36,989 bases of DNA from Mesorhizobium sp. (lineage in GTDB: Bacteria > Pseudomonadota > Alphaproteobacteria > Rhizobiales > Rhizobiaceae). A model generated the notes under the pieces. It saw only the letters and a program-made list of their open reading frames with translations, was not told the DNA's origin and ran no database searches. How positions within the stretch are numbered: position 1 is the first letter of the stretch; each line of letters begins with the position of its first letter. A program made the position numbers and the translations under genes. This document shows positions 15,547 through 34,807 of the stretch, piece by piece. Location of the stretch: NCBI RefSeq assembly GCF_017306585.1, contig NZ_JAFKIC010000119.1, positions 1 to 36,989 of the forward strand, given 5' to 3'.

Positions 15547-15566
15547 GGCTGTGGCTTTCCGTGCCT

Positions 15567-15656: not shown

Positions 15657-15672
15657 GGTCCGGTCCTTCCGC

Positions 15673-17535: not shown

Positions 17536-17553
17536 TCTGCCCGCGCAGCGGGA

Positions 17554-17949: not shown

Positions 17950-20511
17950 TCAGGCCGTGGTGCGCCGGTTCTGCGACTGGAGAGCCGCTGTCAGCGCGCG
18001 CCGCAGGGCGTCGGCATTGTAGGGCTTGCAGACCACCGCTACGTCAGCGAAGGCCGACGGGATCAACGACTTGTCGCCGTACCCCGTGGCGAACACGAAC
18101 GGAATGCCTCGCCGCGAAAGCTCCTCGGCAACCGGCAGCGACGTCCCCTCCCCCAGATTGATGTCGAGCACCGCTAGATGGGGCGCGCCTGCGCGCAGTT
18201 TCTGCAATGCATCCGCGGCGGAGGCGGCGACCGAAACGTTCGAAATTCCCTGATCGGCCAGCATGTTTTCCGCGTCCATGGCGATCAGCATCTGGTCCTC
18301 GACGAGCAGGACACGCAGATCGCCGTCGAAACCCGTCTCCTTGACGGAGGCGGCGTGCCCCGCCGCATCCTCATGCCTCCTGGTCTCGACTGGCGCCGCC
18401 ACATGCCTGGCCGGAAGCACGAACCGCGCATTGATACCGTCCGGATTGTAGTCGACCCGGCTTTCGCCGCCGAGGTCGTAGGGAATGCTGCGGTCGACCA
18501 GAGCGGCGCCGAACCCGAACCGCATCGGCGGCGAAACCCCGGGGCCGCCAGTCTCGCTCCACAGCAGTTCGCAGTCGCCGCCGTCGAGCAGCTTCCACGA
18601 GATGCTCACAGTGCCTCCCGCTTTCGACAGCGCGCCATATTTGGCGGCATTGGTGGACATCTCGTGCAACACCAGGGCCATCACGGAAAAAGCCCGTGCG
18701 TCGAGCCAGACGGCCGGCCCGGCCAGTTCGACTGTCGACGACGGCGTCCGGTAGGGAGACAGCTCGGCATTGAGCAGATCGGCGAGCGCACCGCCGCCAT
18801 CGCCGCGCACCACCTGGTCGTGCGCGAAGGAAAGCGCCTGGATCCGGCCCTTCAGAGCCTCGACATAGTCCCTCAGTCCACGGCCTTCCTGCACCGGATG
18901 GCCGACGAGCGATTTGATGACCGCCAGGATATTCTTGACGCGGTGATTGAGCTCCTCGTTCAGCATGCGTTGCCGCACATCGGCTTTGTCGCGTTCCTCG
19001 GCGACAAGCTCGTTGTGGTGGAGAACGATCTCTACCAATGCGATGCGCGCGGCCTCGGCGATCTCGCGATCGGCCTCGGTCCAGGGCTGCGACTGCATGT
19101 GGACGGTTTCTTTCCAGATGGCGAAGCTCTTGCGCGGCGTCAGCCGGTCTCCGAGCGGCCCGACCTCATAGACCTTGTCGGGATTTCCGGCCCAATTGAG
19201 CGTCTGCACCAATTCCTTGCGGAAGAAGAAAAGGTAATCCTTAGGGCGTTGCGACAGCGGCACCGCCAACAGGCCGGCGGCGTCGCGGCTGAAATCCTCG
19301 GCATCCGGGAAGCCCTGGGAAAGCGAATGGCTGGCCCACACCTTGCCATCGGCGACGGTCCCGACATGGCGCGACAGGTCGGGGATATAGTCCGCCGCGG
19401 GCGCCGACCCGACCGCGGTCCATTTCTTGTCCTTCCACAGGCCGACCCCGTCGCAGGGCATGAGCTTGGCCAGTTCCGGCAGATTGTCACGCAGCAACGC
19501 GTCCAGGTCGGCGGTTCGGGAGGCCAGCTTCAGGAAGCCGTCGATCGCCTGACGCGCGATCCTGGCGGTTTCGAGCGTCCGCTTCTGCTTCAGCGCCTGC
19601 AGATGCAGGGAGAAGAACTCGCCGAACATTTCCGCCGCAACGCGCTTTGCCATCGGCAGCGATCGCGCGCTGTAGTGGTGGCAGGCGATAAGCCCCCAGA
19701 GCGCGCCGTCGACAATGACGGATATCGACATGGAGGCCGCCACGCCCATGTTGCGCAGATACTCGCAATGGATGGGCGAGACGCTTCTCAGATGCGCGAA
19801 CGACAGATCGAGCGGTTCGCCGGAGGCATCCAGCTCCGGCACGACCGGTACCCGCTCGCCGCTGGCGTCGGAAATGATCCTGATCGTGTTGCGCAGATAG
19901 AGGCTGCGCGCCTGCTGGGGGATGTCGCTCGCCGGAAAATACTGGCCGAGAAAGCTTTCCAGGTCCGCGCGCTTGACCTCGCTGACCACCTTGCCGGCCC
20001 CATCCGCCTCGAAGCGGTACACCATCACCCTGTCGTAGTTCAGCAGGCCGCGCACAAGCCGCGCCGCCTGGTTGATCAGGCGGTCGACATCCTCGATATC
20101 ACCAAGACGGCCGATCAGCGAGCGGGCAAGCGTCAGCGGCTGCTCGGCGTCGCTGCTGGCGGGCTCGAGCTCGATGATCGTGCTGGACTTGTGGCGATGC
20201 ACGGCTATGTCGAAGGCCCTGCCGGAAGGCAGCTGGACGCCGAATTGCAGCGCCGGGCGCGATCCTGATCCCACCGTCGCCAGCGTGTTGCGAAGATCGT
20301 GGGCAGCCCTGTCGCCAAGGATCGCTTCCAGCGGCGTCCCGTTGATCTCACCGTCCCGGCCGAGCGTCTCGTTGGCATTGGCTGAATGGCGCAGGCACGT
20401 GACCGCGTTCGCATCGCAGGCGATCAGGCAGCCATGCGGCTGGATGCTCCCGGGGATATGGATGGGCTCCCGGTCGCAATTGGTCAGGTTCACCGCCGTC
20501 TTATTCAACAT
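17950..20511 (-). CDS. Bacteriophytochrome with HWE histidine kinase and receiver domain
   Basis: An 853-residue red/far-red photoreceptor. The biliverdin-binding cysteine is present near the N-terminus (Cys12, in LTNCDREPIHIPGSIQPHG), as expected for bacterial phytochromes. PAS, then GAF with FPASDIP (193-198), His248 in SPIHCEYLRNMGV and LIACHH (His278) follow. The PHY domain has the tongue motif PRKSF (459-463). The kinase is of the HWE/HisKA_2 type, with His523 in EELNHRVKNILAVIKSL, instead of ordinary HisKA. A C-terminal receiver carries Asp783 (LAVLDINLGE) and Lys829, so phosphotransfer could occur within one chain. The start is taken as ATG 20511; an in-frame TTG lies at 20517. It overlaps the heme oxygenase gene by 11 bases. 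Confidence 0.95.
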   Translation of the reverse strand: MLNKTAVNLTNCDREPIHIPGSIQPHGCLIACDANAVTCLRHSANANETLGRDGEINGTPLEAILGDRAAHDLRNTLATVGSGSRPALQFGVQLPSGRAFDIAVHRHKSSTIIELEPASSDAEQPLTLARSLIGRLGDIEDVDRLINQAARLVRGLLNYDRVMVYRFEADGAGKVVSEVKRADLESFLGQYFPASDIPQQARSLYLRNTIRIISDASGERVPVVPELDASGEPLDLSFAHLRSVSPIHCEYLRNMGVAASMSISVIVDGALWGLIACHHYSARSLPMAKRVAAEMFGEFFSLHLQALKQKRTLETARIARQAIDGFLKLASRTADLDALLRDNLPELAKLMPCDGVGLWKDKKWTAVGSAPAADYIPDLSRHVGTVADGKVWASHSLSQGFPDAEDFSRDAAGLLAVPLSQRPKDYLFFFRKELVQTLNWAGNPDKVYEVGPLGDRLTPRKSFAIWKETVHMQSQPWTEADREIAEAARIALVEIVLHHNELVAEERDKADVRQRMLNEELNHRVKNILAVIKSLVGHPVQEGRGLRDYVEALKGRIQALSFAHDQVVRGDGGGALADLLNAELSPYRTPSSTVELAGPAVWLDARAFSVMALVLHEMSTNAAKYGALSKAGGTVSISWKLLDGGDCELLWSETGGPGVSPPMRFGFGAALVDRSIPYDLGGESRVDYNPDGINARFVLPARHVAAPVETRRHEDAAGHAASVKETGFDGDLRVLLVEDQMLIAMDAENMLADQGISNVSVAASAADALQKLRAGAPHLAVLDINLGEGTSLPVAEELSRRGIPFVFATGYGDKSLIPSAFADVAVVCKPYNADALRRALTAALQSQNRRTTA

Positions 20512-21100
20512 CTTCAAGTCTCGTGAATGCCTTCTCAGCCGCGGCGAACGTGCTCAGCGCCGCCGACACGACGCGTTCCATGTCCAGCCCATCGGCATTT
20601 TCGAGCGCCGAAACGAATACGGTCCAGCTGTCGGACGAAGCCTGGCGCGAGAGGTGACTTGCCCCATGTCCACGGTCCAGCCCGAGCGCGAGCGCTCGCT
20701 TGAGCAGGATGCGCGCGCCAAATCCGGAGCCTTCCAGAACATAAAGGCAGCCGAACAGCGATGAATCGTCCGCCAGCAGGCCAACCGGCCATTCCGGAAC
20801 ATCGTGCACCGGCAATCCCAGGGCCAGCAGGTCCGCGGACAGCTCGGGACCGACAAGGGTCGGCTGCCAGCTTTCCAGGCTATGCGGAAAAGAGGCTCCC
20901 CGCAGCGCCCGCTCGATCGGGAGCCGGAACCGGTAGAGGCCCGTCAGATAGTGGCCATAGGCTTCGACGGTATCGAAACTTCCGACGCGTTCATCGACAC
21001 GGCGGTGCGCTGCGGCTGTACGCTCCCTCAACAGGAAGCGGCGGGAAGGTTGATGCATGCTTGTCTGCAAGGCCCCAGGAAGATGCCGTAGCTCTGGCAC
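20501..21100 (-). CDS. bphO: Biliverdin-producing heme oxygenase (BphO)
   Basis: About 199 residues. It opens heme to biliverdin, the chromophore of the adjacent phytochrome. The heme-ligand region LLRERTAAAHRRVDERVG (His32) and the distal-helix motif YVLEGSGFGARILLKRAL mark the heme-oxygenase fold; the sequence is of the divergent BphO type. The start is uncertain: GTG 21100 has GAGG six bases upstream, while ATG 21058 (MHQPSRRF) would give 185 residues with a poor ribosome site. The stop lies inside the start of the phytochrome gene, so the two are translated together and chromophore supply matches apoprotein. Confidence 0.9.
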   Translation of the reverse strand: MPELRHLPGALQTSMHQPSRRFLLRERTAAAHRRVDERVGSFDTVEAYGHYLTGLYRFRLPIERALRGASFPHSLESWQPTLVGPELSADLLALGLPVHDVPEWPVGLLADDSSLFGCLYVLEGSGFGARILLKRALALGLDRGHGASHLSRQASSDSWTVFVSALENADGLDMERVVSAALSTFAAAEKAFTRLEDVE

Positions 21101-21192
21101 ATTTGGCCTCTAACGCCGCCTGGGAAAGTCGGTTCCACGACGTTTTGAACAATTTACGCGAAATCGGGCCTTTGTTGCGCGCAGGCAACCCC

Positions 21193-21236
21193 GCTGAAAA
21201 TAGGAAAGCCCGGCTCGGGAGGGCGGAGCCGGGCTT
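21193..21236 (-). terminator. Terminator of the DUF982 gene
   Basis: AAGCCCGGCTC (21206-21216) and GAGCCGGGCTT (21226-21236) form a perfect 11-bp stem with a 9-base loop. On the minus strand it is followed by TTCCTATTTTC. It lies 37 bases after the DUF982 stop and insulates that gene from bphO. Confidence 0.8.
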
Positions 21237-21272
21237 CCGGTGGCGGCTTGACGGATAGCCACCACGATCTCG

Positions 21273-21575
21273 TCAGGCAGCGTAACCGCCGTAGCCGCGC
21301 GCGACGGCGCGCGCCACGATGAGCGGCTCGATCTCCGGCCAGAGGATGCCGGTGGCATCGGCGAACTCGACCAGGGCATGCCGGGCCTCGTCCCTGGTGA
21401 TGCAGCCTTCCAGAGCCAGCCCGCACGCCTCGACCGCGTTGCGATAGAGAGGGCCGCGGCGGGCCGTGGTCCAGTCGGTGAGGAAATCGTGCATTTCGGC
21501 CAGCGACGAAATCTCACGCTTGAAGCCGAGGCCGACGGACAACCAAACGGGTGAGTGAAACACCTTGTCGTGCAT
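21273..21575 (-). CDS. DUF982 protein
   Basis: A 100-residue protein of a family expanded in rhizobia, with no established function. It opens MHDKVFHSPVWLSVGLGF, then REISSLAEMHDFLTDW, RRGPLYRNAVEACGLALEG and TRDEARHALVEFADATGIL, which is the DUF982 pattern. It is cytosolic and shows no catalytic motif. ATG 21575 has AGGAG 8 bases upstream. Its own terminator follows. Confidence 0.87.
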   Translation of the reverse strand: MHDKVFHSPVWLSVGLGFKREISSLAEMHDFLTDWTTARRGPLYRNAVEACGLALEGCITRDEARHALVEFADATGILWPEIEPLIVARAVARGYGGYAA

Positions 21576-21721
21576 GAAGCAGGCTCCTGTTGCCACGGGT
21601 TCGGAAAATGGAATTCGATGGATAGACTGGCGGGATCTGATGATTCAGACGCCATGAAACGCACCGCGCGGCAGGAGGTTCCAGAGACCTTTCACTGATC
21701 CGACCGGGACGGCGCGAACGC

Positions 21722-22048
21722 CTATGTCAGATGACCGGTCCACCAGCCATGGCTGCTGCTGAGACGGATCGCAAGCATGCCGACGCCAGATATCATCGCC
21801 GCCCAGTAAAGCGGTGTGCCGACCTTCCAGCGTTCGTCGGCTGGAGCGGCGCCCAGCAAGGCCTTGCGGGTGCCATAGAGACCGGCAAGCAGCGCCAGGT
21901 TGAGGAGGATATCCAGCCAGACCACGCCCCTGCTGGCGAATTCACCGCCCGGAATACAGAGCCGCCAGACGAAAGGCAGGATCAGCAGGGCGGACAACAC
22001 CCGGAACGGCATCCAGGACACAGGTTTGCTTCGGCTGATATCCGGCAT
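21722..22048 (-). CDS. Small membrane protein, unknown
   Basis: A 108-residue protein with three hydrophobic stretches: about residues 15-33 (FRVLSALLILPFVWRLCI), 43-58 (VWLDILLNLALLAGLYG) and 80-96 (LYWAAMISGVGMLAIRL). It ends in the polar SSSHGWWTGHLT. A strong GGGGGGAAA ribosome site precedes the ATG. No family is recognised. It is the last gene before the proposed left boundary of the island. Confidence 0.7.
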   Translation of the reverse strand: MPDISRSKPVSWMPFRVLSALLILPFVWRLCIPGGEFASRGVVWLDILLNLALLAGLYGTRKALLGAAPADERWKVGTPLYWAAMISGVGMLAIRLSSSHGWWTGHLT

Positions 22049-22187
22049 GATTTCCCCCCAAGGGAAACAATATAGCTTAAAAAGCGCGGCTACGAATTGC
22101 CCGAATTTACACGAAGTGGTGACTGCTGGTGAGAATGGCGGAAAGATGGCGTGCGCCTATCCTGCGAAGCTCGGACAGCGAAGCGGG

Positions 22188-22200
22188 ATGGCGGAGAGAG
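22188..22200. repeat. Left copy of tRNA-Ser 3'-end repeat (candidate att site)
   Basis: ATGGCGGAGAGAG here is identical, in the same orientation, to 30780-30792, which covers the CCA end and acceptor stem of tRNA-Ser. Position and orientation are those expected for the displaced tRNA end after integration of an element. A weaker copy, ATGGCGGAAAGA, is at 22135-22146. Confidence 0.5.
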
Positions 22201-22267
22201 GGGTATAGGCCAAAAATGGTTGCCTACCCATACGGGAGATCAATTTCCGATGGATCTCTAAAGCGGA

Positions 22268-23014
22268 TTACTTGCGTAACATATCTGAGAGAGTTCTGTC
22301 CTGCTTGCTGACAAGCTCCAAATCCAATCCTGACAGCAAATCGACAAGGTGGCTCCTCATCAAATTTGCTGCATCGTCTGGTTTATGGTTCGCTATGGCC
22401 TCCACAAGAGCATGATGGGCGTGGCTTTCGCACGTCGCGTCGCGTCGCTTCCAGTAGAGGGCGACTATGAGCGAAGATCGTGACAATAGGTCATATACAT
22501 AACTGGCAAATATCGAATGTGCCGCAATATCCGCGATCGCCATATGAAAACCGGCCGATAGCTTGATCGCAGCGCCATCATCATGAGCCTGGGTCGCAGA
22601 GTGCTCATGCTCCAAATGTAATCGGAGTTCTTTTATGGCTGCAGGGGTAGCAACCTGTGCAGCCAACGCGGCGACCTTAGGTTCGATGAGCGCGCGCGCT
22701 TCAAATATCTCGCGAGCCTCCTGCTTAGATGGTTGAGCTACGAAAGCACCGCGATTTGGCTCCAGCCGAACCAGCTTGTCATGTGCGAGCGCCTGCAGCG
22801 CTGGTCTGATAAGGGCTCGTCCGACGGAATAAATTGATGACAGTTCATCCTCTGGGAGTTTTGTTCCAGGGGGTATTTGATGACTGATGATAGCCTCTCT
22901 CAGGGCTTGATAGACTGGCGCCCAACTCACCGGTTGGGCGTCTGATTGTTTGTGAGCGAGTGTTTTCATAGGGTTTGGCGACGTGTTGAACTCGATGCCT
23001 CGGGACATGATCAT
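22268..23014 (-). CDS. GntR-family regulator, FCD type
   Basis: About 248 residues: an N-terminal winged helix (VYQALREAIISHQIPPGTKL through RPALQALAHDKLVRLEPNRG) followed by an all-helical FCD effector domain with candidate metal/ligand residues in SAGFHMAIADIAAHS and HAHHALVEAIANH. FCD regulators usually sense small carboxylates and repress adjacent catabolic genes. The start at 23014 overlaps the racemase stop by 4 bases (ATGA); ATG 22969 is an alternative. No strong ribosome site is seen for either. The gene is clearly more AT-rich than the sequence to its left. It probably acts on the TTGTCTACAA sites near 23.8 and 24.0 kb. Confidence 0.88.
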   Translation of the reverse strand: MIMSRGIEFNTSPNPMKTLAHKQSDAQPVSWAPVYQALREAIISHQIPPGTKLPEDELSSIYSVGRALIRPALQALAHDKLVRLEPNRGAFVAQPSKQEAREIFEARALIEPKVAALAAQVATPAAIKELRLHLEHEHSATQAHDDGAAIKLSAGFHMAIADIAAHSIFASYVYDLLSRSSLIVALYWKRRDATCESHAHHALVEAIANHKPDDAANLMRSHLVDLLSGLDLELVSKQDRTLSDMLRK

Positions 23015-23742
23015 GCTGGCGAGAACGAAGAAAATATTCCAGAGAAGCTTTTGGGGCGCGGTCTTTGATAGCCCCCCAGAGAAGTAGTCGACAATCCTAA
23101 ACGGATCAGTCCTTCGCAAAGCTGTACTGCGCACGAGACGCCTTCAAGCACCGGAGCCCGGAAGCGCTGGCTCATCGCTTGCGCCAGTTCCGCCATTCCA
23201 GCACAGCCAAGAACGATCGCCTCAGCATTGTCTTCGCTCAGCGCTCGGCTGATTTGATCCGCGACCCTCTCTTGAGCTGCCGAACCTGGGCGTTCCAGTT
23301 CCAAGACCGGCACGTCGCACGCACGAACCGACGAACAACGCGAGGATAGTCCATAGCGAACAAGGTTTTGTTCGATGGCCGGTACCGACTGCCTTAGTGT
23401 CGTCACGACGCTGAAGCGTCCCGAAACGAGGCTTGCCATGTGAAACGCTGCCTCGCCAATCCCGATCACGGGGCCGACCGAAACGCATCGTGCAGCATCC
23501 AACCCAGTATCGTCGAAGCACCCAATGATGACGGCGTCGGCGTGACCGCCATTGTGGTGAATTTGGTCGATGAGACCCGGCACGGCAAAGGCCTGATCAT
23601 AATAGCCCTCGATACTGGGAGGACCGAAGAACGGGTTGACGGTGGTAATCGCAGTATCGGCACTGGCAGTTTTGCGAGCGGCGAGATCGATCTTCGCCGT
23701 CATCGAAGCGGTCGTGTTGGGATTGATGATCAGAATCTTCAT
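23011..23742 (-). CDS. Hydantoin/aspartate/glutamate racemase-family protein
   Basis: A 243-residue cytosolic enzyme of the Asp/Glu/hydantoin racemase superfamily, closest in pattern to hydantoin racemase. It starts MKILIINPNTTASMTAKID and has NPFFGPPSIEGYYDQA. The two catalytic cysteines are present: Cys75 in IIGCFDDTGLDAARC and Cys180 in VLGCAGMAEL, matching the usual Cys76/Cys181 pair. Family members racemise hydantoins or amino acids by two-base proton transfer; maleate isomerases are relatives. The substrate here is unknown. It is co-transcribed with the GntR gene (4-base overlap) and divergent from the transporter operon. Confidence 0.87.
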   Translation of the reverse strand: MKILIINPNTTASMTAKIDLAARKTASADTAITTVNPFFGPPSIEGYYDQAFAVPGLIDQIHHNGGHADAVIIGCFDDTGLDAARCVSVGPVIGIGEAAFHMASLVSGRFSVVTTLRQSVPAIEQNLVRYGLSSRCSSVRACDVPVLELERPGSAAQERVADQISRALSEDNAEAIVLGCAGMAELAQAMSQRFRAPVLEGVSCAVQLCEGLIRLGLSTTSLGGYQRPRPKSFSGIFSSFSPA

Positions 23743-23782
23743 ATGAGGGTGCACCTGCGGACGCGTATCGCTGTTATGCGGT

Positions 23783-23794
23783 TTTGTCTACAAA
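23783..23794. promoter_or_regulatory. Candidate GntR operator, racemase side
   Basis: TTTGTCTACAAA contains the palindrome TTGT-CT-ACAA (23784-23793). This is the type of half-site pair bound by FCD-type GntR proteins. It lies about 42 bases upstream of the racemase start and overlaps a possible -35 element (minus-strand TTGTAG). Confidence 0.55.
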
Positions 23795-23971
23795 GTTATT
23801 CCTTTTTGGTGACGGCGAATGATCAGCCCGGAAGAAGCCACGGGTGGGGGATCGTTGACTGCTCCAGCCGATTTTCTGTGGCACTCTAGCTGGTCTCGTC
23901 ATTGAATTTGGCCGCCCGGCTTTCATGGAAATCAACCATCCGCGAGAAAACTGTTGCCATATCGATGGATT

Positions 23972-23982
23972 TTTGTCTACAA
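23972..23982. promoter_or_regulatory. Candidate GntR operator, transporter side
   Basis: This is a second exact copy of TTGTCTACAA (23973-23982), again preceded by a T run and followed by GTTA, as in the first copy. It lies about 40 bases upstream of the binding-protein start. The two sites are 189 bases apart, each near one divergent gene. Confidence 0.55.
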
Positions 23983-24021
23983 GTTACGATAATAATCTAC
24001 GACAATAAGGGGAACTCGAAA

Positions 24022-25182
24022 ATGAGCACAATCAATTCGGAATCGGTTTTGCGAAATTCGGCGGTTGCCAATCGCATCAACAGGCGGCGCCTTATCGCAA
24101 GCGCAATGGGCGCGACGGCTACCGTGTTAGCGGCGCCATATCTGGTCCGCCGGGCCAGAGCGGCGGGGCAGATCAACCTCTTGGGCTGGGCCGAGGAGAT
24201 GCCCCAAGCCATAATCGATCTCTTTGCAAAGAAGACGGGAATTCAGATCAAGATCACCCCGTTTTCCTCGAATGAGGAGCAGATGAACAAGCTGATGGCG
24301 ACCGGCGGGGAAGGGTTCGATCTTTGCCAGCCGACCGTCGATCGTGCTGCCCAGTTCAGAGACCTTGGCGTGCTCGCGCCGATAGATACCAACAAGGTGC
24401 CGGTCGACAGGATTCTTCCCGCGGTGATGGATGGCATGAAGGCCTGGCATTTCGACGGCGGCCTTTACTCGCTCCCGCATTGCTGGGGCACGGAGGCAAT
24501 CGGCTGGCGAAGCGACCTGACTACGCTGGAATACAGGACGTTGAGCTACGGCACGCTCTGGCAGGACGAGTATGTTGGCAAGATGCAAGGTAAGCCGGAT
24601 ACCCTCTTGCTCGGCATCGGACTTTGGTTCGACGCCTCCGGCAAGCTGCCTTCCAACCGGATGCTGGATAGCTACAAGGACGAAAGCACGATGAGAAAGA
24701 TCTACGAAGAACTCCTCGCCTTTGCCGTCTCGAAGAAGACTCAGGTCCGGCAGTTCTTTGAGACGTCCGACGTGGTTAAATCGGGCTTCATGGAGAATGG
24801 CTGTGTAATCGGCCAAGTATGGGACGGGCCCTGCTTCGCGCTCAAGCGCGAAGGAAAACCCGTTCGCTACATGGCTCCCCGGGAAGGCGCCCAGTCTTGG
24901 ATCGACGGGCTGTCGATCGTGGCCAATGCTGCGAATTCTGGAGAGACATACGAGTTCCTCAAGTTCCTCTACACGCCCGAGATCTCGGGCATGGTGGCAG
25001 AAGGCTCCGGTTACAATGGCGTCATGCAAGGAGTGGATGCGTTCCTTTCTGAGGAAACCAAGAAAAACTTCGCCGAGGCGTACCCTGAGGACGCATTGTC
25101 GAAGCTATGGAATCGCCAGGAAGAGCCCGCTTGGTACGGGACTATACGCAACGAGTATTCCGAGCGATTCAAGGCGGCATGA
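24022..25182 (+). CDS. PotD-like ABC transporter binding protein, Tat-exported
   Basis: A 386-residue periplasmic solute-binding protein of the spermidine/putrescine (PotD, SBP_bac_8) type. The N-terminus contains a twin-arginine signal, NRRRLIASAMGATATVLAAP, with cleavage near RARA. The mature part starts INLLGWAEEMPQAIIDLFAK and contains GEGFDLCQPTVDRAAQF, AVMDGMKAWHFDGGLYSLPH and GTEAIGW, consistent with the PotD/PotF fold. AAGGGG lies upstream of ATG 24022. First gene of a six-gene run: binding protein, ATPase, two permeases, NMT1-like, M24-like. The ligand may be a polyamine or another small cationic/nitrogen compound. Confidence 0.9.
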   Translation: MSTINSESVLRNSAVANRINRRRLIASAMGATATVLAAPYLVRRARAAGQINLLGWAEEMPQAIIDLFAKKTGIQIKITPFSSNEEQMNKLMATGGEGFDLCQPTVDRAAQFRDLGVLAPIDTNKVPVDRILPAVMDGMKAWHFDGGLYSLPHCWGTEAIGWRSDLTTLEYRTLSYGTLWQDEYVGKMQGKPDTLLLGIGLWFDASGKLPSNRMLDSYKDESTMRKIYEELLAFAVSKKTQVRQFFETSDVVKSGFMENGCVIGQVWDGPCFALKREGKPVRYMAPREGAQSWIDGLSIVANAANSGETYEFLKFLYTPEISGMVAEGSGYNGVMQGVDAFLSEETKKNFAEAYPEDALSKLWNRQEEPAWYGTIRNEYSERFKAA

Positions 25183-25235
25183 TTATGTCGGAAGGCATAA
25201 TTCGCGCTTCGGTCTGAATTCGGTTGCTGCCTGAT

Positions 25236-26360
25236 ATGATGACATCCAATGCTACGCCTGACGCTATCCCCGTGGAGGGTCACCCAGGGCGCGGAAGCGT
25301 CAGTCTGCGTGATGTGGAGATACGCTTTGGTGAATTTACTGCGGTTCATCGAACGAACCTCCATATCGAGTCTGGTGAGTTTTTCAGTTTCCTGGGACCC
25401 TCGGGATGCGGAAAAACAACGTTGTTACGGGCAATCTCGGGATTCCTTCAACCTACCAGCGGACAGGTCAGCATTGGTGGGGTCGACGTGCGGCGGAAGG
25501 GGCCGAATGCGCGTCCCACCGCCCTGGTGTTCCAGAATCTCGCTCTGTTTCCGCTAATGTCGGTTGCCGAGAATATCGGCTATGGGCTGCGGGTCCGAGG
25601 CGTGGCGCGCCACGCCCGCCAAACAACGGTGGAACGCCTCCTGGATCTCGTTTCCTTGCCTGGGCAGGGCGGGAAGAAGATTCACGAGTTGTCCGGCGGC
25701 CAAAAGCAACGCGTCGCGATTGCGCGTGCCCTTGCCGTCGAACCGTCCGTTCTCCTGTTGGACGAACCGCTGTCCGCGCTGGATCTCAAGTTGCGCCAGC
25801 ACATGAGAGCCGAATTGCGCGCGATCCAGCGTCGGATCGGAATTACATTTGTCTACATCACTCATGACCAAGGCGAAGCTCTGGCGATGTCGGACCGGGT
25901 TGCGGTGATGAACGCGGGGCGGATCGAACAGGTCGGGACCGCCCGCGGCGTTTACGATGCTCCCGAGACTCCGTTCGTCGCCTCGTTCGTCGGCGAAAAC
26001 AATATCGTCCACGGCCGGGTCAAGGAAGTCCACGACAACCAGGCCGTGCTGGAAACGCCGCTCGGCGATCTGACGGGTCGGCGCACGGGAAGCCTGAGGC
26101 CGGGCCAGGAGGCGGCCTTCTTCATCCGGCCTGAATCGATACAGATTCAGCCGTCAGCTTCGGCCCTCGCCGCTGAGATCGTCGAGATATCCTATGAAGG
26201 CAGCACCTCGCAAATAACGCTGAAGATGACCAACGGGGAGACGATGTTGGCCCGTGTGCCGACAAGCCGGGCACTCAACCCTGCCGTTGGGGACCAACTC
26301 GGTTTCGGGTTCGGCAGGGAAGAGGGAACCGTCATCGCGACCGATGGTGTGCGGCCATGA
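25236..26360 (+). CDS. PotA-like ABC transporter ATPase
   Basis: A 374-residue ATP-binding subunit of the polyamine/Fe/sulfate import class. Walker A GPSGCGKTT (54-62), Q-loop FQNLALFPLMSVAENI, signature LSGGQKQRVAIARAL, Walker B VLLLDEPLSALD and switch His in YITHDQGEA are all intact. A C-terminal TOBE domain (from about residue 260, NIVHGRVKEV to the end) is present, as in PotA. ATG 25236 or the adjacent 25239 is the likely start; an upstream TTG is less likely. The stop overlaps the first permease (ATGA). Confidence 0.94.
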   Translation: MMTSNATPDAIPVEGHPGRGSVSLRDVEIRFGEFTAVHRTNLHIESGEFFSFLGPSGCGKTTLLRAISGFLQPTSGQVSIGGVDVRRKGPNARPTALVFQNLALFPLMSVAENIGYGLRVRGVARHARQTTVERLLDLVSLPGQGGKKIHELSGGQKQRVAIARALAVEPSVLLLDEPLSALDLKLRQHMRAELRAIQRRIGITFVYITHDQGEALAMSDRVAVMNAGRIEQVGTARGVYDAPETPFVASFVGENNIVHGRVKEVHDNQAVLETPLGDLTGRRTGSLRPGQEAAFFIRPESIQIQPSASALAAEIVEISYEGSTSQITLKMTNGETMLARVPTSRALNPAVGDQLGFGFGREEGTVIATDGVRP

Positions 26361-27373
26361 GAAGCACATCGGTACAGTCGGTCATGTTGCTTCTTCCGTT
26401 GCTGGTGACCGTTCTGCTTCTGGCAAGCAGCTTTTACGATCGACGCTCGGGAAAGGCGGTCGGTCCCGGCTTCTTCCAACGCAACGGGATCGTGGTGGCG
26501 ATCTTTCTGATTGCGGCGGTAGCCTGCTGGACGTTTCTCACGATCATATTTCCGCAAGTGGCGATGATCGAGTTGTCGTTCCATCCGAACCTGTCACCCA
26601 GACAGATCGGCGGGCCTGGCGACGTCTACACGCTCGACAACTATCGCTACTTCCTCTTCGGCCCGCCCGGGTCCCCCGACGGTTACAACTTCCTGCATCT
26701 TCGAGCCTACGGCATCACGATCGTCGCCAGTGTCTTCGTCACGCTTTTGAACTTCATCCTGTGTTATCCGCTCGCATTCTATATGGCGCAATCGGCGCTC
26801 CCTCAACGGCTGCGGCTCCTGTTTGTCTTCCTGATCCTGCCATATTGGATAAACGAAGTTCTTCGCGTCTTCGCGATTCGTTTACTTCTGTCCAACTCCG
26901 GCATCGTCAACACACTGCTCCTCTCCACCGGGATGATCAGCCAGCCGGTTGATTTCGTGGGCAATGATGTCGGCTTGTATTGGGGGTTGAGCTACTCCTG
27001 CATTCTGGTGATGGTCTTCACGCTCTACAACGCTCTGGAGAGCCTTGACAAAAACCAGATCGAGGCAGCCCGTGATCTCGGTGCTCCCTGGTGGCATGTC
27101 CATGCTTTCGTCGTGATGCCGCATGCAAAGCCCGGCATCGCTTCGGGATGCGCGCTGACATTCATGGCCTGCGTCGGCTCGCTCGCGGCGCCGCTGATCC
27201 TCGGCGGACCTCGGACACTGTGGTTCACGCCGGTGATCTACAATCGCTTCTATCAGGCGCTCAACTGGCCGCAAGGCGCCGCCTATGCGTTCATCCTGCT
27301 CGTCGGCTGCGTGATTTTCGTGCTGGTCACGCTGCGGCTCTTCAAGCTTAAGCTCGGGCAGATCGCGCCATGA
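26357..27373 (+). CDS. PotB-like ABC transporter permease
   Basis: A 338-residue inner-membrane permease with six core membrane segments plus an extra N-terminal one (MLLLPLLVTVLLLASSFY). The cytoplasmic EAA loop, EAARDLGAPWWHVHAFVVMPHAKPG in function (about residues 236-260), contacts the ATPase. The large periplasmic loop after the second segment (FHPNLSPRQIGGPGDVYTLDNYRYF) is typical of PotB/PotH. It is translationally coupled on both sides by 4-base overlaps. Confidence 0.92.
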   Translation: MRSTSVQSVMLLLPLLVTVLLLASSFYDRRSGKAVGPGFFQRNGIVVAIFLIAAVACWTFLTIIFPQVAMIELSFHPNLSPRQIGGPGDVYTLDNYRYFLFGPPGSPDGYNFLHLRAYGITIVASVFVTLLNFILCYPLAFYMAQSALPQRLRLLFVFLILPYWINEVLRVFAIRLLLSNSGIVNTLLLSTGMISQPVDFVGNDVGLYWGLSYSCILVMVFTLYNALESLDKNQIEAARDLGAPWWHVHAFVVMPHAKPGIASGCALTFMACVGSLAAPLILGGPRTLWFTPVIYNRFYQALNWPQGAAYAFILLVGCVIFVLVTLRLFKLKLGQIAP

Positions 27374-28194
27374 GTGCCGATATTTTCCGCCGCGTCACCT
27401 TCCGCGCGTATCTAGCGCTGTTTCTGTTCTTGTTGATGGCGCCGCTGCTTGTCATGACGGCCTCCGCTTTCAATACGCCAAGCTATCCACAGGCCTGGCC
27501 GATCGAGGGATTTACCTTCGCATGGTTCAGCAAGCTCATGATCAGCTACGATCTGATCGAGGGATTGGGCAATAGCCTGATAATCGCACTCGCGGTAACG
27601 GCTCTGTCCGTACCGATCGGGCTGGCCGCCGCCATTGTGATGAGTCAATTGCAGGCCCGCTTTCGCGCCATCTACTATCTGGTTGCGATCTCACCGATGC
27701 TGACCCCCGGCATCATCACCGGCGTTGCGACCGTCGTCTTCTGGCGTGAAACCACGCGACAGATTGGCCTGACCTTCTTGTACAATGGCCTGTTTCTCAG
27801 CGTCGCCGCGCAAACCACTTTCGTGTCCACGCTCTGCATGCTGATCATACTCGCTCGACTTCAGCGCTTCGACCCCAGCCAGGAAGAGGCTGCGCTGGAC
27901 CTAGGCGCAAGTCCGCTCCAAATCTTCACCAGCATCACGCTGCCTTTCCTGCGCCCGGCGCTCATATCGTCCGTCGTGCTTTCCCTGCTGTCGTCGATCG
28001 AAGAGTTCAACGCGACCACTTTTACGATACTGGCGCAAAAGACACTTACCACAGTTCTCGCCGGTCGCATTCGCGTGGGTCTCACGCCTGAAATCAGTGC
28101 TCTGGCCGTCTTGATCGTTTCGCTGACCCTTATCGGCGCCGTCGCGCACGAAATATTTGCCCGTCATAAGTCCCGACGCGCCAAAGCCGACTAA
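27370..28194 (+). CDS. PotC-like ABC transporter permease
   Basis: A 274-residue permease with six membrane segments and the EAA motif EEAALDLGASPLQIFTSITLP near residue 175. It has the PotC-type opening FLLMAPLLVMTASAFNTPSY and the loop WPIEGFTFAWFSKL. It partners the preceding permease to form the import channel. The start overlaps the preceding stop (ATGA); the following gene begins 28 bases later. Confidence 0.92.
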   Translation: MSADIFRRVTFRAYLALFLFLLMAPLLVMTASAFNTPSYPQAWPIEGFTFAWFSKLMISYDLIEGLGNSLIIALAVTALSVPIGLAAAIVMSQLQARFRAIYYLVAISPMLTPGIITGVATVVFWRETTRQIGLTFLYNGLFLSVAAQTTFVSTLCMLIILARLQRFDPSQEEAALDLGASPLQIFTSITLPFLRPALISSVVLSLLSSIEEFNATTFTILAQKTLTTVLAGRIRVGLTPEISALAVLIVSLTLIGAVAHEIFARHKSRRAKAD

Positions 28195-28222
28195 CACCTT
28201 GGCAGACTACAGGAGCTTCTGA

Positions 28223-29110
28223 ATGAGAACCCTTCGGCTGATCGCGGAAGAGCATATCACTTATGTGCCACATCATGTCGCGCAGCATCTCGGCCTGTTT
28301 GCCGAGCACGGACTTACGATCGATGTGAACTATAATTCCGGTCCAGGCGGTTCTTGGCTGGCCGACGTCCTGGCCGAGGGCCGCGCCGACATTGCCCGCG
28401 GCGGCGTCTGGATACCGCTGATGTATCGGGGACGGCTCGAAGAGATCCGTATCTTCGCCCAGCTTTGCGGTTTCAACACCCAGGTCCTGATCGCGCGCGG
28501 TCCTCAGCCTCGGTTCAAATGGAGCGACCTCTACGGAAAGAAGGTGCTTCTGCCCGCCTCGTCGACCAGCCAGTGGATGTTCTTCAAAGGTGTCTTGCGC
28601 GAGGCCGGGATAGACACCGGGCGGATCACCTTCATTCGCGATCTGGATGAATCCACTACAAACCGTCTCTGGAGAAGTGGCTTTACCGACTACTACCTCA
28701 CCTATTCTCCGCTCGCCGAGGAACTGTTGAACGAGGGTTTCCATGTCGCCGCCGACTTCTCCCTCATGGCTGGAGAGGTCCCTTGGAGCGTGTACTACAC
28801 GGCGCCGCGGGTTCTAAGTGAAAGGAGGTCGGATATCACCGGTTTCGTGGCGGCACTTTCCGCAGCCGCCCGCTGGATGGAATCACATACCGGCGCAGAC
28901 ATTGCGAAGCTGATCGCCCCCGATTTCAAGGCCGTGTCAGTTTCGGTCTTGGCCGCCAGCATCGATCGTATGAAATCGCATGGAACATGGTCCCCGGACC
29001 TGCGCGTGAGGCCGGAGCCGTTCATGCGCTACCAGGGCATGATCGCGGCGTACGGGCTTATCGAGACGCCGGTGGCCTATGACGACATCATCGACACTCA
29101 AAGCCTCTGA
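28223..29110 (+). CDS. NMT1/THI5-like protein without a signal peptide
   Basis: A 295-residue protein with the type II binding-protein fold of the NMT1/THI5 (SsuA/TauA) family. It shows PHHVAQHLGLFAEHGLTIDV, then GPGGSWLADVLAEGRADIARGG and LYGKKVLLPASSTSQWMFFKG. Relatives are usually periplasmic binding proteins, but this one starts directly with MRTLRLIAEEHITYVPHH, which enters the first beta strand, so no export signal is present. AGGAG sits 7 bases before the ATG, which makes a missed upstream leader unlikely. It may therefore act in the cytosol as an enzyme or ligand sensor. No THI5-type CCCFC motif is seen. Confidence 0.78.
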   Translation: MRTLRLIAEEHITYVPHHVAQHLGLFAEHGLTIDVNYNSGPGGSWLADVLAEGRADIARGGVWIPLMYRGRLEEIRIFAQLCGFNTQVLIARGPQPRFKWSDLYGKKVLLPASSTSQWMFFKGVLREAGIDTGRITFIRDLDESTTNRLWRSGFTDYYLTYSPLAEELLNEGFHVAADFSLMAGEVPWSVYYTAPRVLSERRSDITGFVAALSAAARWMESHTGADIAKLIAPDFKAVSVSVLAASIDRMKSHGTWSPDLRVRPEPFMRYQGMIAAYGLIETPVAYDDIIDTQSL

Positions 29111-29125
29111 ATCGGACGGCGAAGC

Positions 29126-30532
29126 ATGACTTACAGCAAAACCGAGAAGCTTCTCGCCGGATTTGAGCCCAGCTTCGAGTTCGTGCCGGTCGACCCGTTA
29201 CCGGAGGCGGAGTTCGCTGATCGATTGCGCCGCATCAGGCGCGCGGCCATTGTCGGCGAATATGACGCGCTGATTGTCCATGCCGACGACGTGGGCTGGT
29301 ACCACACGTCGAATTCTTACCTCCGTTACATTTGTGATTGGTCACGTGAAGGCTTTCTGATCATACCCACGGATGACGACAAGGATATGCAGTTGATCTC
29401 GTTCTTCAGCGATTCCGTCATCCTGCCGCCTGGCGGAGAGCCTGTTCTCGTCGAAAAAATTTCGCAGGTCGGCTGTTGGGGACGGGAGTACGCAGACAGG
29501 CCAGGATCTGCCCGACAGAAAGCAATCGATGCCGTTCAGGACAGGCTGGTCAGCCTGGGACTTGCGGCTGGTCGGATCGGGCTGATCGGCGACGACACAT
29601 CAATACCCTATTGGCAGCAACTCGGCGAGGCGGTCCCTCGCGCTGAATTCATGCCCGAAAATGGCATCATAGATCGCATGCAACGCATTAGATCCCCGCG
29701 AGAGATCGAACTGTTCCGCGCCGCGTCGGCCCTGATCGACATCGGAATACAGGCCGCCTACCACGTCACCAAGCCGGGCGTGACCGATCATGAGATCTAT
29801 GCTGCCTTCACCTTTGCTCAGATGTCTCGAGGCGGTGAAACCGGCGATGGCTACCAGATAGGTATCAATCGCTTCGGCACACACTGCGGCAAGCCATATG
29901 GCCACGTTGTGGCACCGGGTGACCTGATCAACCTTTATATCTCTAATGTCACCTACCGCGGCTATTTTGCACAAAGCGCTCGCATGATCGCGGTAGGCGC
30001 CATTACCGCGAAGCAGGAAGAGGTGCTCGTGATGTGCTCGGAAGGCGTTCGCCGCGCCGCAGCTATCGCGCGGCCGGGAATGCTGATCCGCGATATCAAC
30101 GAAGCTTCATTCTCCCCCTTCATCGAGCGGGGATACCTTGCCGATGCCGCAGCGAGGACCATGCCGTTCAATTGGGAATCGATGCCTGATGGATCTCCGA
30201 GAACCATCGAGCGGCGCCATGTCCACGACGCGGATTGGGAGCGGCAGGGTCGCCGGTTGAACCATGTCTATCCCGCGCAGCACGGCCCGCACAACCCGAA
30301 TCTCGGACACGAGGTCGGGCTTCCAGGCATGCCGCTGTACAACATCTCGTCGAACAATTACGACCGGCTGGAAGAGGGCATGGTTTTTGTCCTTCACTCT
30401 CAATGGCTCGAACCCTTAGTGGCAGGCGCAAATGTCGGCGACTGTTTCGTTGTCACTTCGCAGGGTCTGGAGAATCTCACATGCAACACTCCGCTCGAAG
30501 CCCATCGGGTTCCATCCGTAGCCATGAGCTAG
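29126..30532 (+). CDS. M24-family protein lacking metal ligands (creatinase-like)
   Basis: A 468-residue protein with the pita-bread fold of aminopeptidase P/creatinase: an N-terminal creatinase-type domain (about 30-185) and a C-terminal M24 domain (about 190-455). Metal-ligand positions are lost. In APGDLINLYISN the usual first Asp is Tyr271; in YRGYFAQSARM the second Asp is Gln283; the final EEGMVFxxE Glu is His424; and the HE of the fourth motif is missing after GHEVGLPG. His395 is kept. This matches metal-free members such as creatinase rather than peptidases. It is the last gene of the operon, 15 bases after the NMT1-like gene. A hydrolase acting on a C-N bond of a small compound is the likely role. 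Confidence 0.82.
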   Translation: MTYSKTEKLLAGFEPSFEFVPVDPLPEAEFADRLRRIRRAAIVGEYDALIVHADDVGWYHTSNSYLRYICDWSREGFLIIPTDDDKDMQLISFFSDSVILPPGGEPVLVEKISQVGCWGREYADRPGSARQKAIDAVQDRLVSLGLAAGRIGLIGDDTSIPYWQQLGEAVPRAEFMPENGIIDRMQRIRSPREIELFRAASALIDIGIQAAYHVTKPGVTDHEIYAAFTFAQMSRGGETGDGYQIGINRFGTHCGKPYGHVVAPGDLINLYISNVTYRGYFAQSARMIAVGAITAKQEEVLVMCSEGVRRAAAIARPGMLIRDINEASFSPFIERGYLADAAARTMPFNWESMPDGSPRTIERRHVHDADWERQGRRLNHVYPAQHGPHNPNLGHEVGLPGMPLYNISSNNYDRLEEGMVFVLHSQWLEPLVAGANVGDCFVVTSQGLENLTCNTPLEAHRVPSVAMS

Positions 30533-30616
30533 GGGATGAGAAGGAGTTAGCCTCAAAACCTGATAGTTATTCTTTCGAGGATGGCAGCCTCTTCAATTCC
30601 AACTGAAACCGGTGGC

Positions 30617-30683
30617 TCCGCTTAGCGCACCGCCTCCGCCCGGGAGAAGTCCGCCTTGTCGATGGCATGGCGCACTAAGCGGA
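30617..30683. repeat. Short palindromic (REP/MITE-like) element
   Basis: TCCGCTTAG (30617-30625) and CTAAGCGGA (30675-30683) are perfect inverted ends of a 67-bp segment; the next 8 or so bases of each arm also pair imperfectly (GCGCAC/GTGCGC). It follows the M24-like gene and could be an intergenic repeat element or its terminator. The minus strand also reads as a short open frame ending KADFSRAEAVR, probably incidental. Confidence 0.4.
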
Positions 30684-30779
30684 TTCGTAGCGGCTTGTTA
30701 CACAAATCAGGAATGTTTCAGCTTTAGCGACCTTGCAATTCCATTAAATTATTGAACTTATTATATTATTAGGAAAATT

Positions 30780-30792
30780 ATGGCGGAGAGAG
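30780..30792. repeat. Right copy of tRNA-Ser 3'-end repeat (candidate att site)
   Basis: ATGGCGGAGAGAG spans the 3' terminus of the tRNA-Ser gene and equals 22188-22200. An intact tRNA on this side, with foreign-looking genes beyond its 3' end, is the usual arrangement for tRNA-targeted integration. Confidence 0.5.
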
Positions 30793-30870
30793 CGGGATTC
30801 GAACCCGCGTTACGGTTTCCCGTAAACACACTTTCCAGGCGTGCGCCTTCAACCACTCGGCCACCTCTCC
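30781..30870 (-). tRNA. tRNA-Ser (anticodon GGA)
   Basis: On the minus strand the 90-base gene starts GGAGAGGTGGCCGAGTGGTT and ends with encoded CCA. The anticodon arm reads CACGC-CTGGAAA-GTGTG, giving anticodon GGA (Ser, codons UCC/UCU). A long variable arm (TTTACGGGAAACCGTAA) marks a class II tRNA, and the T-arm GCGGGTTCGAATCCCGC is perfect. Its 3' end faces the 22.2-30.7 kb segment. Confidence 0.98.
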
Positions 30871-31253
30871 GTCGTTGCCTTCGCGCCGGCCGGTTTCGCC
30901 GCGCGGGTTGGGGAGATGCGTCTCCTTCGGGGCTCTGATGCGGTATCTCCGCGCCATGGACGCCGCCCAACCAGTTGGCGTCCTTCCCCGCACCTGAGCC
31001 GTCAAAGCAACAGGCGCGGGGCTCATCTAGTCGATCCCGCGCCGAATGCCAAGCCATAACGGCAGTCTATTCACCGTACCCGTCATGCGGGGCCTGGTTC
31101 CCTCGCCGGCGTGGCGTTTTTGCAAGCTTTGCCGCCGAATGATGTGCACAGCCGGGACCGCAGGGCCGGGCATGCTTGACTTCGCCCGGGCGTGGCGGTC
31201 GAGTGCCCGTGACCGAGCGATCGGCGGACTTTGCGGGGGAGCATCGTCGCGCA
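30871..31253. other. 383-base intergenic region upstream of tRNA-Ser
   Basis: No convincing gene is found here. It must contain the tRNA-Ser promoter (minus strand) and that of the following membrane-protein gene, but no clear -35/-10 pair stands out. Small hairpins such as GGAGATGCGTCTCC near 30911 are present. Open frames seen here on both strands have no conserved features. Confidence 0.5.
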
Positions 31254-31958
31254 ATGACGACAGGCACAGGACAAACACCGGCCGGAGGCCCCGACAACGG
31301 CCTATCCTATGTTCCCGTGGGCTGGCTCGTCATCGTCATGGCGTGGTCGCTCTACGGTCTGGCTTCGGCGTCGTGGCTGTTCGGAAGTTCCAGCCTGCCC
31401 GACGCGGTCCTCTACTTCTTCCTCGGCGGGCTCGTGGTCAATGTCATCACCGTTCTGTGGGGGCTTTACCTGCTTGGCCTCGCCTTCGGCCGCTCGGCGC
31501 GCTTCCCGCGCCAGTTCACCATCTGGCAGGTCGCGCTCATCGTCTGGGTGCTGGCGAGGCAAGCCTATGTGCTTGCGATGCCGTCTTTCGTATTCACCGC
31601 CAGGAGCCTGCTCATAGGCGGCGCCGAGATCGCCATCGGCCTGCTCTGCATCTACCTGCTGCGCCGGGGCTCCGGCGCGGAGGCCGTCTATGCCAAGCCG
31701 CAAACCGAAGCGCCGCCGGTCTATGTTTCGATCGTCGCCGCCCTGCTCGGCATCCTGCTTGGCGCCGTCATCGGCGCCGTTGGCGGTTTTCTGGCCGGCT
31801 CGGTGATCGCCGATGTCGCCGAGGTAAGCTGCTTCGAGGGCGGCTGCGGCTATTTCGCCGTGTTCATCGGCCTGGCGGGGCTGGTGGTCGGCGCCATTGC
31901 CGGCGGCATCCTTGCCGTCTGGCTCGTTCACCGGCGCCCGCGCAAGCCAGCCGTATAG
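31254..31958 (+). CDS. Polytopic membrane protein, unknown
   Basis: A 234-residue protein with about six membrane segments. The N-terminal four (from VGWLVIVMAWSLYGLASASW to LLIGGAEIAIGLLCIYLL) are separated from a C-terminal Gly/Ala-rich pair (VSIVAALLGILLGAVIGAVG and FIGLAGLVVGAIAGGILAVW) by a short soluble linker. The last two form a glycine-zipper-like hairpin around the cysteine pair SCFEGGCGYF. No family can be named. The start at ATG 31254 has a G-rich site 12 bases upstream, which is long; a GTG upstream (about 31209) is possible. Confidence 0.65.
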   Translation: MTTGTGQTPAGGPDNGLSYVPVGWLVIVMAWSLYGLASASWLFGSSSLPDAVLYFFLGGLVVNVITVLWGLYLLGLAFGRSARFPRQFTIWQVALIVWVLARQAYVLAMPSFVFTARSLLIGGAEIAIGLLCIYLLRRGSGAEAVYAKPQTEAPPVYVSIVAALLGILLGAVIGAVGGFLAGSVIADVAEVSCFEGGCGYFAVFIGLAGLVVGAIAGGILAVWLVHRRPRKPAV

Positions 31959-32090
31959 GGTGATCGGACACGCGCCTTCAAATTCGCGGATCGCGATTGC
32001 GGAGAGGCCGCTGCCATTCTATTTCTGCTCCTGGGACATGTGCAGCGGATCCGCTGGAAGACGTCCGGTTTTCGCCGGGGGAGAGCCTTG

Positions 32091-32414
32091 ATGTTGCGTT
32101 TCATCTTTCGTCTTGCGGCAATGGTCGCGCTGTCGGTTTCCGTCATCATGGCGGTGCTCGACACCACCCGCACGGTGGCGGCTTCGGCCCTTGTGCTGAC
32201 CCCGCTCAACGCCAGTTGGCTGGCCGTTTCGCCGGATACGCGGGCCGCTTTCGAAACCTACGTGCGCGCCAAGGCCGGCCCGCTGCTGTGGGACGGCGTC
32301 ATCGCCTGGGTGCTGAACCAGCCCGGCTTTGCCGTGTTCGCGGTGCTGGCCTTCCTGCTCTACGCGATCGGCTACAGGCGCCAGCCGCGCACGGGACGGT
32401 TCGCGGCCACCTGA
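32091..32414 (+). CDS. Small two-span membrane protein, unknown
   Basis: A 107-residue protein with an N-terminal hydrophobic segment (FRLAAMVALSVSVIMAVLD) and a C-terminal one (GFAVFAVLAFLLYAIGYRR). The polar middle, DTTRTVAASALVLTPLNASW to PLLWDGVIAWVLNQ, probably faces the periplasm. GGGGGAGAG precedes ATG 32091. The type is common in rhizobia (recollection); the role is unknown. Confidence 0.7.
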   Translation: MLRFIFRLAAMVALSVSVIMAVLDTTRTVAASALVLTPLNASWLAVSPDTRAAFETYVRAKAGPLLWDGVIAWVLNQPGFAVFAVLAFLLYAIGYRRQPRTGRFAAT

Positions 32415-32651
32415 TCCGCGCGGCCTGCTTCTCGCAAAGCGGGCATGCGCGCCATGCCCGAGTTGCCGCGCGGTTCGCCCTTGGCATGCTTTTCCAAAAG
32501 GTCAAAATTCCGCGTGAGTTTTGTTTCGGGCCGTGCCAGATTGCCGCCAAGCGGGAGGGAGTACACTCCTGGCTGACGTCGCGTGCCTGCCGCAGAACCG
32601 GGCAGTCACGCGAGGCGTAACGGAAAAAATAACCGACAGGGTGTGGATCAC

Positions 32652-33641: not shown

Positions 33642-33662
33642 TCGGCAAACACCAATTTGCGA

Positions 33663-33696
33663 ACCGCCGGGCCTGTCCCGGCGGTTTTGTTTTTGG
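33663..33696 (+). terminator. Rho-independent terminator of the BMP gene
   Basis: ACCGCCGGG (33663-33671) pairs perfectly with CCCGGCGGT (33677-33685) around a 5-base loop, followed by TTTTGTTTTT. It lies 21 bases after the stop. Confidence 0.92.
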
Positions 33697-33721
33697 AAGA
33701 CTTCCGACGACCGAGGCCAGA

Positions 33722-34576: not shown

Positions 34577-34597
34577 GACAGGCGCCCTCCCCTTCCC

Positions 34598-34807
34598 TCA
34601 CCAGTGCGGCGGCTTGGTCACCGGCACGTCGGGTGCCGCCTGTTCCTCCAGCGCCAGGAAACGGTCGGTCAGCGCGTCGAGCTTGCGCTGCATGCGCTCG
34701 ATCACCGTCCACTGCTCGGCGATCTGGCCGGACAGTTCCTCGATGGTCTTTTCCTGCTCGGCGGCGCGGATTTCCAGCGTCGTCAACCGGTCGGCGGGCA
34801 TGATCAT
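34598..34807 (-). CDS. slyX: SlyX-family protein
   Basis: A 69-residue coiled-coil protein. After MIMPADRLTTLEIRAAEQEK, the heptad-like TIEELSGQIAEQWTVIERM and the C-terminal PHW ending (VTKPPHW) are typical of SlyX. The function is unresolved, although it is widely conserved in proteobacteria. The start is ATG 34807 or 34801; AGGGA lies 8 bases upstream of the former. It lies 21 bases upstream of the anti-sigma-like gene on the same strand and divergent from the ABC ATPase. Confidence 0.85.
   Translation of the reverse strand: MIMPADRLTTLEIRAAEQEKTIEELSGQIAEQWTVIERMQRKLDALTDRFLALEEQAAPDVPVTKPPHW

Follow-up and report, generated by a model that had tools for sequence, protein, structure and literature searches.

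Cis-mobilizable elements (CIMEs), as defined in the part of PMC5704250 available to us, keep both attachment sites (attL and attR), have no integration or transfer genes, and accrete with other elements at one tRNA gene. In Mesorhizobium, integrative and conjugative elements (ICEs) and integrative and mobilizable elements (IMEs) are on record beside a tRNA-Ser gene, and the alpha regions of tripartite ICEs, which have no integrase, are recombined by integrases from other regions (PMC8627217, in the sections accessible to us). Here we analyse a stretch of 36,989 nucleotides from Mesorhizobium sp. (contig NZ_JAFKIC010000119.1; hereafter the window), in which a block of eight genes (22188-30780) adjoins the 3' end of a tRNA-Ser(GGA) gene. 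This block is very probably a genomic island integrated site-specifically into the tRNA 3' end, and probably a decayed, integrase-less remnant of the CIME kind. Tycheposons of marine bacteria also carry nutrient-acquisition cargo at tRNA genes, and it is on this description that they are likened to the block.

The block resembles CIMEs in its attachment sites, both made from the end of the target gene, in the absence of integration and transfer genes, and in its accretion with other elements at one tRNA, but it differs in that its left arm is missing (compared with the available part of PMC5704250). The likeness is one of structure rather than of demonstrated descent from a particular ICE or IME; the right arm is common to a group in which no integrase was detected, and the left end has no match. 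In the tRNA-gene islands of Islander, a displaced fragment of the 3' end of the tRNA gene in the correct orientation marks the far end, as it does here; however, the Islander filters require an integrase gene test, and the block carries no integrase gene (PMC4383910, in part). The ICEs and IMEs of PMC8627217, as far as that source was available, come from the same genus, whereas the block is 8.6 kb long and encodes eight proteins with no conjugation or relaxase gene among them. Among the papers listed by searches of the open-licence literature, no title or abstract opening described the type D elements treated below, and a text search of the accessible part of PMC5882170 for terms on them returned nothing.

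Repeat and empty site at the tRNA-Ser(GGA) gene

The original prediction, made from the sequence alone, proposed an element inserted at the tRNA 3' end and bounded by a 13-bp direct repeat. Searching the window returned the exact 13-mer at the same coordinates, 22188-22200 and 30780-30792, both on the + strand. As the tRNA-Ser(GGA) gene (30781-30870) lies on the - strand, positions 30781-30792 are its 3' end, and the copy at 22188 is a displaced fragment of it in the same orientation. The exact repeat is indeed as short as the prediction had cautioned, but similarity reaches 17 of 19 bp (22188-22206 against 30780-30798). Copies with two mismatches are found at 22135-22147 and, on the - strand, at 15170; shuffled windows give a mean of 1.67 matches at up to two mismatches, and weight is placed only on the exact copies and their positions. 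A repeat that was frequent in the genome had been named as grounds for rejecting the insertion, and this is ruled out by a count of three copies in the own genome (7.09 Mb, 385 contigs), the third of which (contig C34, 19233) lies, judged by eye, in coding sequence. A chance repeat is ruled out by its position at the tRNA tail and by the empty site described below. In Rfam, the family Plastid-psbl-rps4 matched below its gathering score at 30784-30834 on the + strand, opposite the tRNA-Ser, perhaps because this family overlaps a plastid tRNA-Ser.

In the sister genome G010, window positions 1-5782, 5809-22146, 30781-33693 and 34176-36989 have colinear counterparts at 88-91% identity. G010 joins window position 22146 to 30781 with the tRNA tail alone in common, and thus presents a clean empty site. 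This uninterrupted junction is the alignment proposed beforehand as confirmation of an insertion at the tRNA 3' end, and it supports that claim. A tRNA query was matched in all 146 genomes of the genus, own included, most of the best matches ending at the tRNA 3' end or a few bases away. When 20 tRNA-Ser loci were compared over about 18 kb on the tRNA 3' side (further in G010), none had the block beside the tRNA, so that it is not, as it might have been, a fixture of this place in all close relatives. A left flank like that of the window was within the stretch read at 13 of these loci and not at 7, two of which (G024 and G049) have it further left. A search of the genus with the DNA of the whole block, scoring two candidates per genome, gave among the matches listed only one long colinear match besides the own genome, in Mesorhizobium atlanticum CNPSo 3140 (G004), and this lies elsewhere in that genome. 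Outside the block, window positions 15941-21700 are patchily conserved in the relatives compared, except G010, and therefore the variable zone is wider than the block reported here; some 480 bp at 33694-34175 have no match in the otherwise colinear G010.

The imperfect extra copy of the tRNA tail, which had been listed as a weak point of the prediction, is present at 22135-22147, but the G010 junction turns it into evidence for an earlier insertion. Because the G010 flank meets the tRNA at this imperfect copy, 22135-22147 is the oldest of the tail copies, 22148-22187 was added later, and the copy can be read as the mark of an older insertion at the same site. The repetitive extragenic palindromic (REP)-like palindrome at 22160-22187, together with the start of the core that follows it, has a match in 61 of the 146 genomes, own included. 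We read 11 of these places besides the window: nine are at a tRNA-Ser gene, which is tRNA-Ser(GGA) in G017, G110, G081, G008, G009 and G136 and another tRNA-Ser in G004, G077 and G035, and two are at a core copy followed by the left end of an element. At the nine, the palindrome (TCCTGCGAAGCTCG..GCGAAGCAGGA) lies exactly at the tRNA 3' end, the isoacceptors being GGA, CGA and GCT (loci L174-L184).

According to the mechanism we consider most likely, site-specific integration at the tRNA tail would have occurred two or more times in succession, the island landing at the scar of at least one earlier insertion (22135-22187). By bringing its own copy of the tRNA tail, it would have kept the tRNA whole while displacing the old tail by 8.6 kb. 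Its left end and any integrase would later have been lost, leaving a presumably immobile remnant, probably kept for its cargo.

Gene content of the block

The eight open reading frames (ORFs) annotated by Pfam bear out the predicted content of regulator, racemase, transporter and enzymes, and include an NMT1-like and an M24 protein (Table 1). The cargo is probably a GntR-controlled uptake system with a hydrolase and a racemase, whose predicted substrate is amino-acid-like or peptide-like. The transporter is nearest to polyamine and 2-aminoethylphosphonate systems, each under the curated NCBIfam cut-off. Relatives of the M24 protein are located on plasmids of Rhizobium and Agrobacterium, the pAtC58 copy lying directly 3' of an ABC transporter. 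G004 has the six right-hand genes too, in unchanged order and with proteins 70-80% identical; the set there is without the regulator and racemase, and no tRNA gene lies within the 19.9 kb read. Many genomes of the genus contain relatives of the regulator-racemase pair, at 65-69% DNA identity. GC content is 0.570 for 22188-30779 against 0.642 on either side, and is lowest, at 0.545, for 22188-23900, in agreement with the AT-richer left end noticed at the outset.

None of the eight proteins is an integrase by Pfam or by PHROGs, in which two known integrases, used as a positive control, matched phrog_1; nor do their Pfam families include relaxase or conjugation genes. PF00589 has no match on this contig, all 10 matches of the own genome being on other contigs. 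An integrase relic was considered and rejected, since only 67 bp separate 22200 from the GntR ORF and the eight proteins show no integrase match.

Table 1. Features of the block and its borders in the window
Feature	Position	Strand	Basis or remark
Older decayed tRNA-Ser 3' end copy (TGGCGGAAAGAT)	22135..22147	+	Its left-hand flank in G010 leads directly to an intact tRNA 3' end
REP-like palindrome	22160..22187	+	Next to tRNA-Ser genes, at the 3' end, in other genomes; in the window, 8.6 kb away from the tRNA
Distal attachment core, displaced tRNA-Ser 3' end copy	22188..22200	+	Similarity up to 22206
GntR/FCD transcriptional regulator	22268..22969	-	Pfam FCD and GntR; ORF 22268-23134, likely start 22969 by eye
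Asp/Glu/hydantoin racemase family protein	23011..23754	-	Pfam PF01177
PotD-like solute-binding protein	24022..25182	+	Pfam/NCBIfam; ORF 23902-25182, likely start 24022 by eye
ABC transporter ATPase, PotA/PhnT-like	25224..26360	+	Pfam/NCBIfam
ABC permease, PotB-like	26357..27373	+	Pfam/NCBIfam
ABC permease, PotC/PotI-like	27370..28194	+	Pfam/NCBIfam
NMT1/THI5-like protein	28223..29110	+	Pfam NMT1
M24 family peptidase, Xaa-Pro peptidase / ectoine hydrolase-like	29126..30532	+	Pfam PF00557, NCBIfam; relatives annotated as Xaa-Pro peptidase
Right attachment arm	30628..30780	+	Has homologues next to tRNA-Ser and next to non-tRNA cores in other genomes
TTGTTACACA arm motif	30695..30704	+	86 bp from the core; only TTGTTAC[AG]CA, on either strand, in the 37-kb window
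tRNA-proximal attachment core	30780..30792	+	Exact 13-mer at the tRNA tail
tRNA-Ser(GGA), target gene	30781..30870	-	tRNA call

Other elements at the same tRNA gene

A 14-mer core, TGGCGGAGAGAGCG, is present in 142 of the 146 genomes. On the contig of the tRNA and at most 60 kb away from it, 25 genomes hold 27 further 14-bp cores, every one on the strand of the tRNA and on its 3' side (counted by eye from listings; a control pattern was rare). The window's own far copy stands outside the 27, as the base after its 12-bp core differs. One of the 27 is part of a second complete tRNA-Ser in G099, where two complete tRNA-Ser(GGA) genes lie 4.26 kb apart in the same orientation (locus L066, 14086-14175 and 18344-18433). 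Six more cores lie 60-250 kb from the tRNA, those of G022, G058, G084 and G092 on its 3' side and those of G095 and G134 on the opposite side. The far end of the G133 island has two cores spaced by 18 bp (L094, 3734-3763), which look like a minimal insertion.

At least 11 islands with the same core have a tyrosine integrase beside the far copy, the ORF starting 80-180 bp inside it. The integrase is P4-type in G024, G049, G002, G104, G133, G025 and G063, and DUF6538-type in G001 and G036 by Pfam and, by likeness of sequence, in G033 and G040 (Pfam was read for G024, G001 and G036, and those of G033 and G040 were in the DUF6538-type model itself). In G022 a P4-type integrase lies beside the distant core, 212 kb from the tRNA (L096, L106), and this is perhaps a very large island. 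G005 has ends of the G036 type and, of the DUF6538-type integrase, only a fragment, and in G114 such a fragment lies about 4 kb from the tRNA-Ser (L074, 14095-14991). The islands of G034, G056, G077, G078, G090, G105, G099 and G047 gave no match to the P4-type or DUF6538-type model, both built for this analysis. The missing integrase had been counted against the prediction, and none was found; since islands that do encode one use this very core and tRNA, its absence nevertheless has a standard reading, that of a cis-mobilizable, decayed island.

Arm motifs were compared in 59 distinct tRNA-Ser(GGA) flanks, which are loci of our choosing and not a random sample. TTGGTCTAAG stands at -85 and -72 in five of them, TGGGGCACC at the same two positions in three, and TTGTTAC[AG]CA at -86 to -90, with at most one mismatch, in 11, window included (mean of 0.45 in mononucleotide shuffles, n = 20). 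Groups of tRNA-Ser elements with different or no integrases have different arm motifs at a nearly equal distance from the core (-85 to -90; L131-L133, L135, L136, L185-L204). The window's right arm aligns with nine other arms from 30660 on, with an E-value of 6e-21 against that of G112, and 30533-30779 is matched in 8 of the 146 genomes, own included. The same arm also stands before a core at non-tRNA sites in G108 and G064.

We use the name type D for tRNA-Ser elements that share TTGTTAC arm motifs. Their left end consists of the core, CGTCTTTCGAT and TTGTTAC motifs at about +66 and +78, and their right end carries TTGTTAC[AG]CA at -86 to -90. The left end (a 23-mer with up to three mismatches) is found at 53 places in 42 of the 146 genomes, 11 of these places being a recurring variant (TGGCGGCGAGAG...) that we dropped as probably unrelated; it has no match in plasmids, phages or IMG/VR. 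It stands at the distant cores of G058, G084 and G092, and in G084 and G086 it also follows cores of the tRNA-Ser(CGA) type. We read eight type D elements that have cores at both borders, at 1.9, 2.5, 6.5, 7.3, 7.6, 34, 47 and 64 kb (a set that includes G047 and G084, whose left cores have mismatches), and the right motif is exact in five of them, altered in G077 and G078 and absent in G105b. Type D elements are stacked in tandem, and the metabolic genes that they carry are unrelated. Five protein groups are common to at least 3 of 13 elements, namely ABC ATPases, LysR-like, cyclase-like and, judged by eye, kinase-like proteins, and a fifth, which in G084 has a match to a FabG-like reductase family; by these signs none of the five is a recombinase.

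Inside the type D elements of G077, G078, G105b, G047, G057, G071, G128 and G084 neither integrase model had a match, the one at 64622 in G071 lying past the right core, in the next element. With every match listed and the same two known integrases as positive control, PHROGs names no integrase or recombinase among 88 ORFs of seven elements (36 from G057, 34 from G084 and 18 from G128, G077, G078, G105b and G047), a scan that covered ORFs of at least 120 aa lying whole within 20-kb pieces, G071 being covered by the two models only. In Pfam, run over 87 of these 88 ORFs, no recombinase is among the 25 families listed out of 169. At 23 loci with type D-like left ends, a few of them doubtful members (e.g. 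G026, G056, G049), neither model matched within 1.5 kb inward (67 bases at one locus). G136, which has a type D left end and another right end, gave a weak DUF6538-type match (E = 3e-5 / 0.0037), and this counts against an integrase-less type D. An autonomous type D element was not found with the integrase models and PHROGs. That the group is integrase-less is supported, not proven.

With its motif at -86, the right arm of the window has the type D spacing. At the left end neither the type D sequence nor the paired motifs are present, and the block is therefore not filed as type D, although it has one type D end. Past 22206 the left end has no match in the 145 other genomes (up to five candidates scored per genome). 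We judged TGCGTAACA at 22273 a chance occurrence, within the coding end of the GntR gene. An integrase is missing from the block, and so are the left arm motifs that relatives sharing its right arm have; it is therefore probably a decayed remnant.

Competing explanations and significance

Several observations weigh against the island as we describe it. Its two ends are no matching pair, since the left end matches no other element, and the nucleotide following TGGCGGAGAGAG is a G in the far copy of the window but a C in the exact far cores read in other islands, with the sole exception of one extra core in G133. The left two genes (22268-23754) and the right six differ in their closest relatives, so that the cargo may be composite. 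Finally, G010 is the sole clean empty site; at the other loci different DNA lies between flank and tRNA, which makes absence of the block there weaker evidence.

An ancestral block, lost from G010 by recombination between the tail copies, has to be considered, as a deletion between direct repeats would leave a junction like this one, and G010 is one genome only. However, it is the older copy (22135), and not 22188, at which the left flank of G010 joins the tRNA, and this flank has no palindrome; with the block also absent from the 20 loci compared and lower in GC, we regard such a loss as decidedly unlikely. Alternatively, the block may have come by homologous recombination from a donor that already carried it at tRNA-Ser, in which case the repeat would be an old attachment site from the donor, without the action of an integrase in this lineage. 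Conserved tRNA genes are plausible anchors for such recombination, and the arms most similar to the right arm are those of two genomes from this genus, G112 and G111. Yet the left breakpoint falls at a core copy, the tRNA of G112 and G111 is without the block, no long match to it was found there among the matches listed, and the 91% identity to G010 from 30781 on speaks against a long donor tract, which together make this route improbable. That the copy at 22188 is a dispersed REP-like repeat ending by chance in the tRNA-Ser tail, with the block placed by something else, would fit the many places in the genus, in 61 of 146 genomes, at which the palindrome and core start recur. But nearly all of those read are at tRNA-Ser (9 of 11) and the other two are at a core followed by the left end of an element, and the G010 breakpoint is at the tRNA; coincidence of this sort is thus very improbable indeed.

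One may speculate further that the block is a damaged member of genus-wide integrase-less type D cassettes, whose transfer to tRNA-Ser tails would be the work of an integrase encoded at another place in the cell. We offer this tentatively and think it possible rather than likely, though the lack of a recombinase among the PHROGs matches makes it a little less doubtful. The block itself belongs to an ordinary class of genomic islands, and the spot where it sits is unusually busy with insertions; less expected is the type D group.

As a site-specific island, the block is a clean example of genes for uptake and degradation that were gained together, as a single unit, at a tRNA gene, and a sister species keeps the state from before the gain. 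In the genus, tRNA-Ser(GGA) holds islands of several integrase and arm types as well as elements without detectable integrase, with one polarity near the tRNA. If the speculation on type D is true, tRNA-Ser in Mesorhizobium would be a collecting point for cargo without a recombinase of its own, and type D cassettes would be somewhat like integron cassettes, but with tRNA-tail attachment sites. Movement of type D elements in trans would mean that one recombinase explains much of the metabolic variation at tRNA-Ser(GGA).

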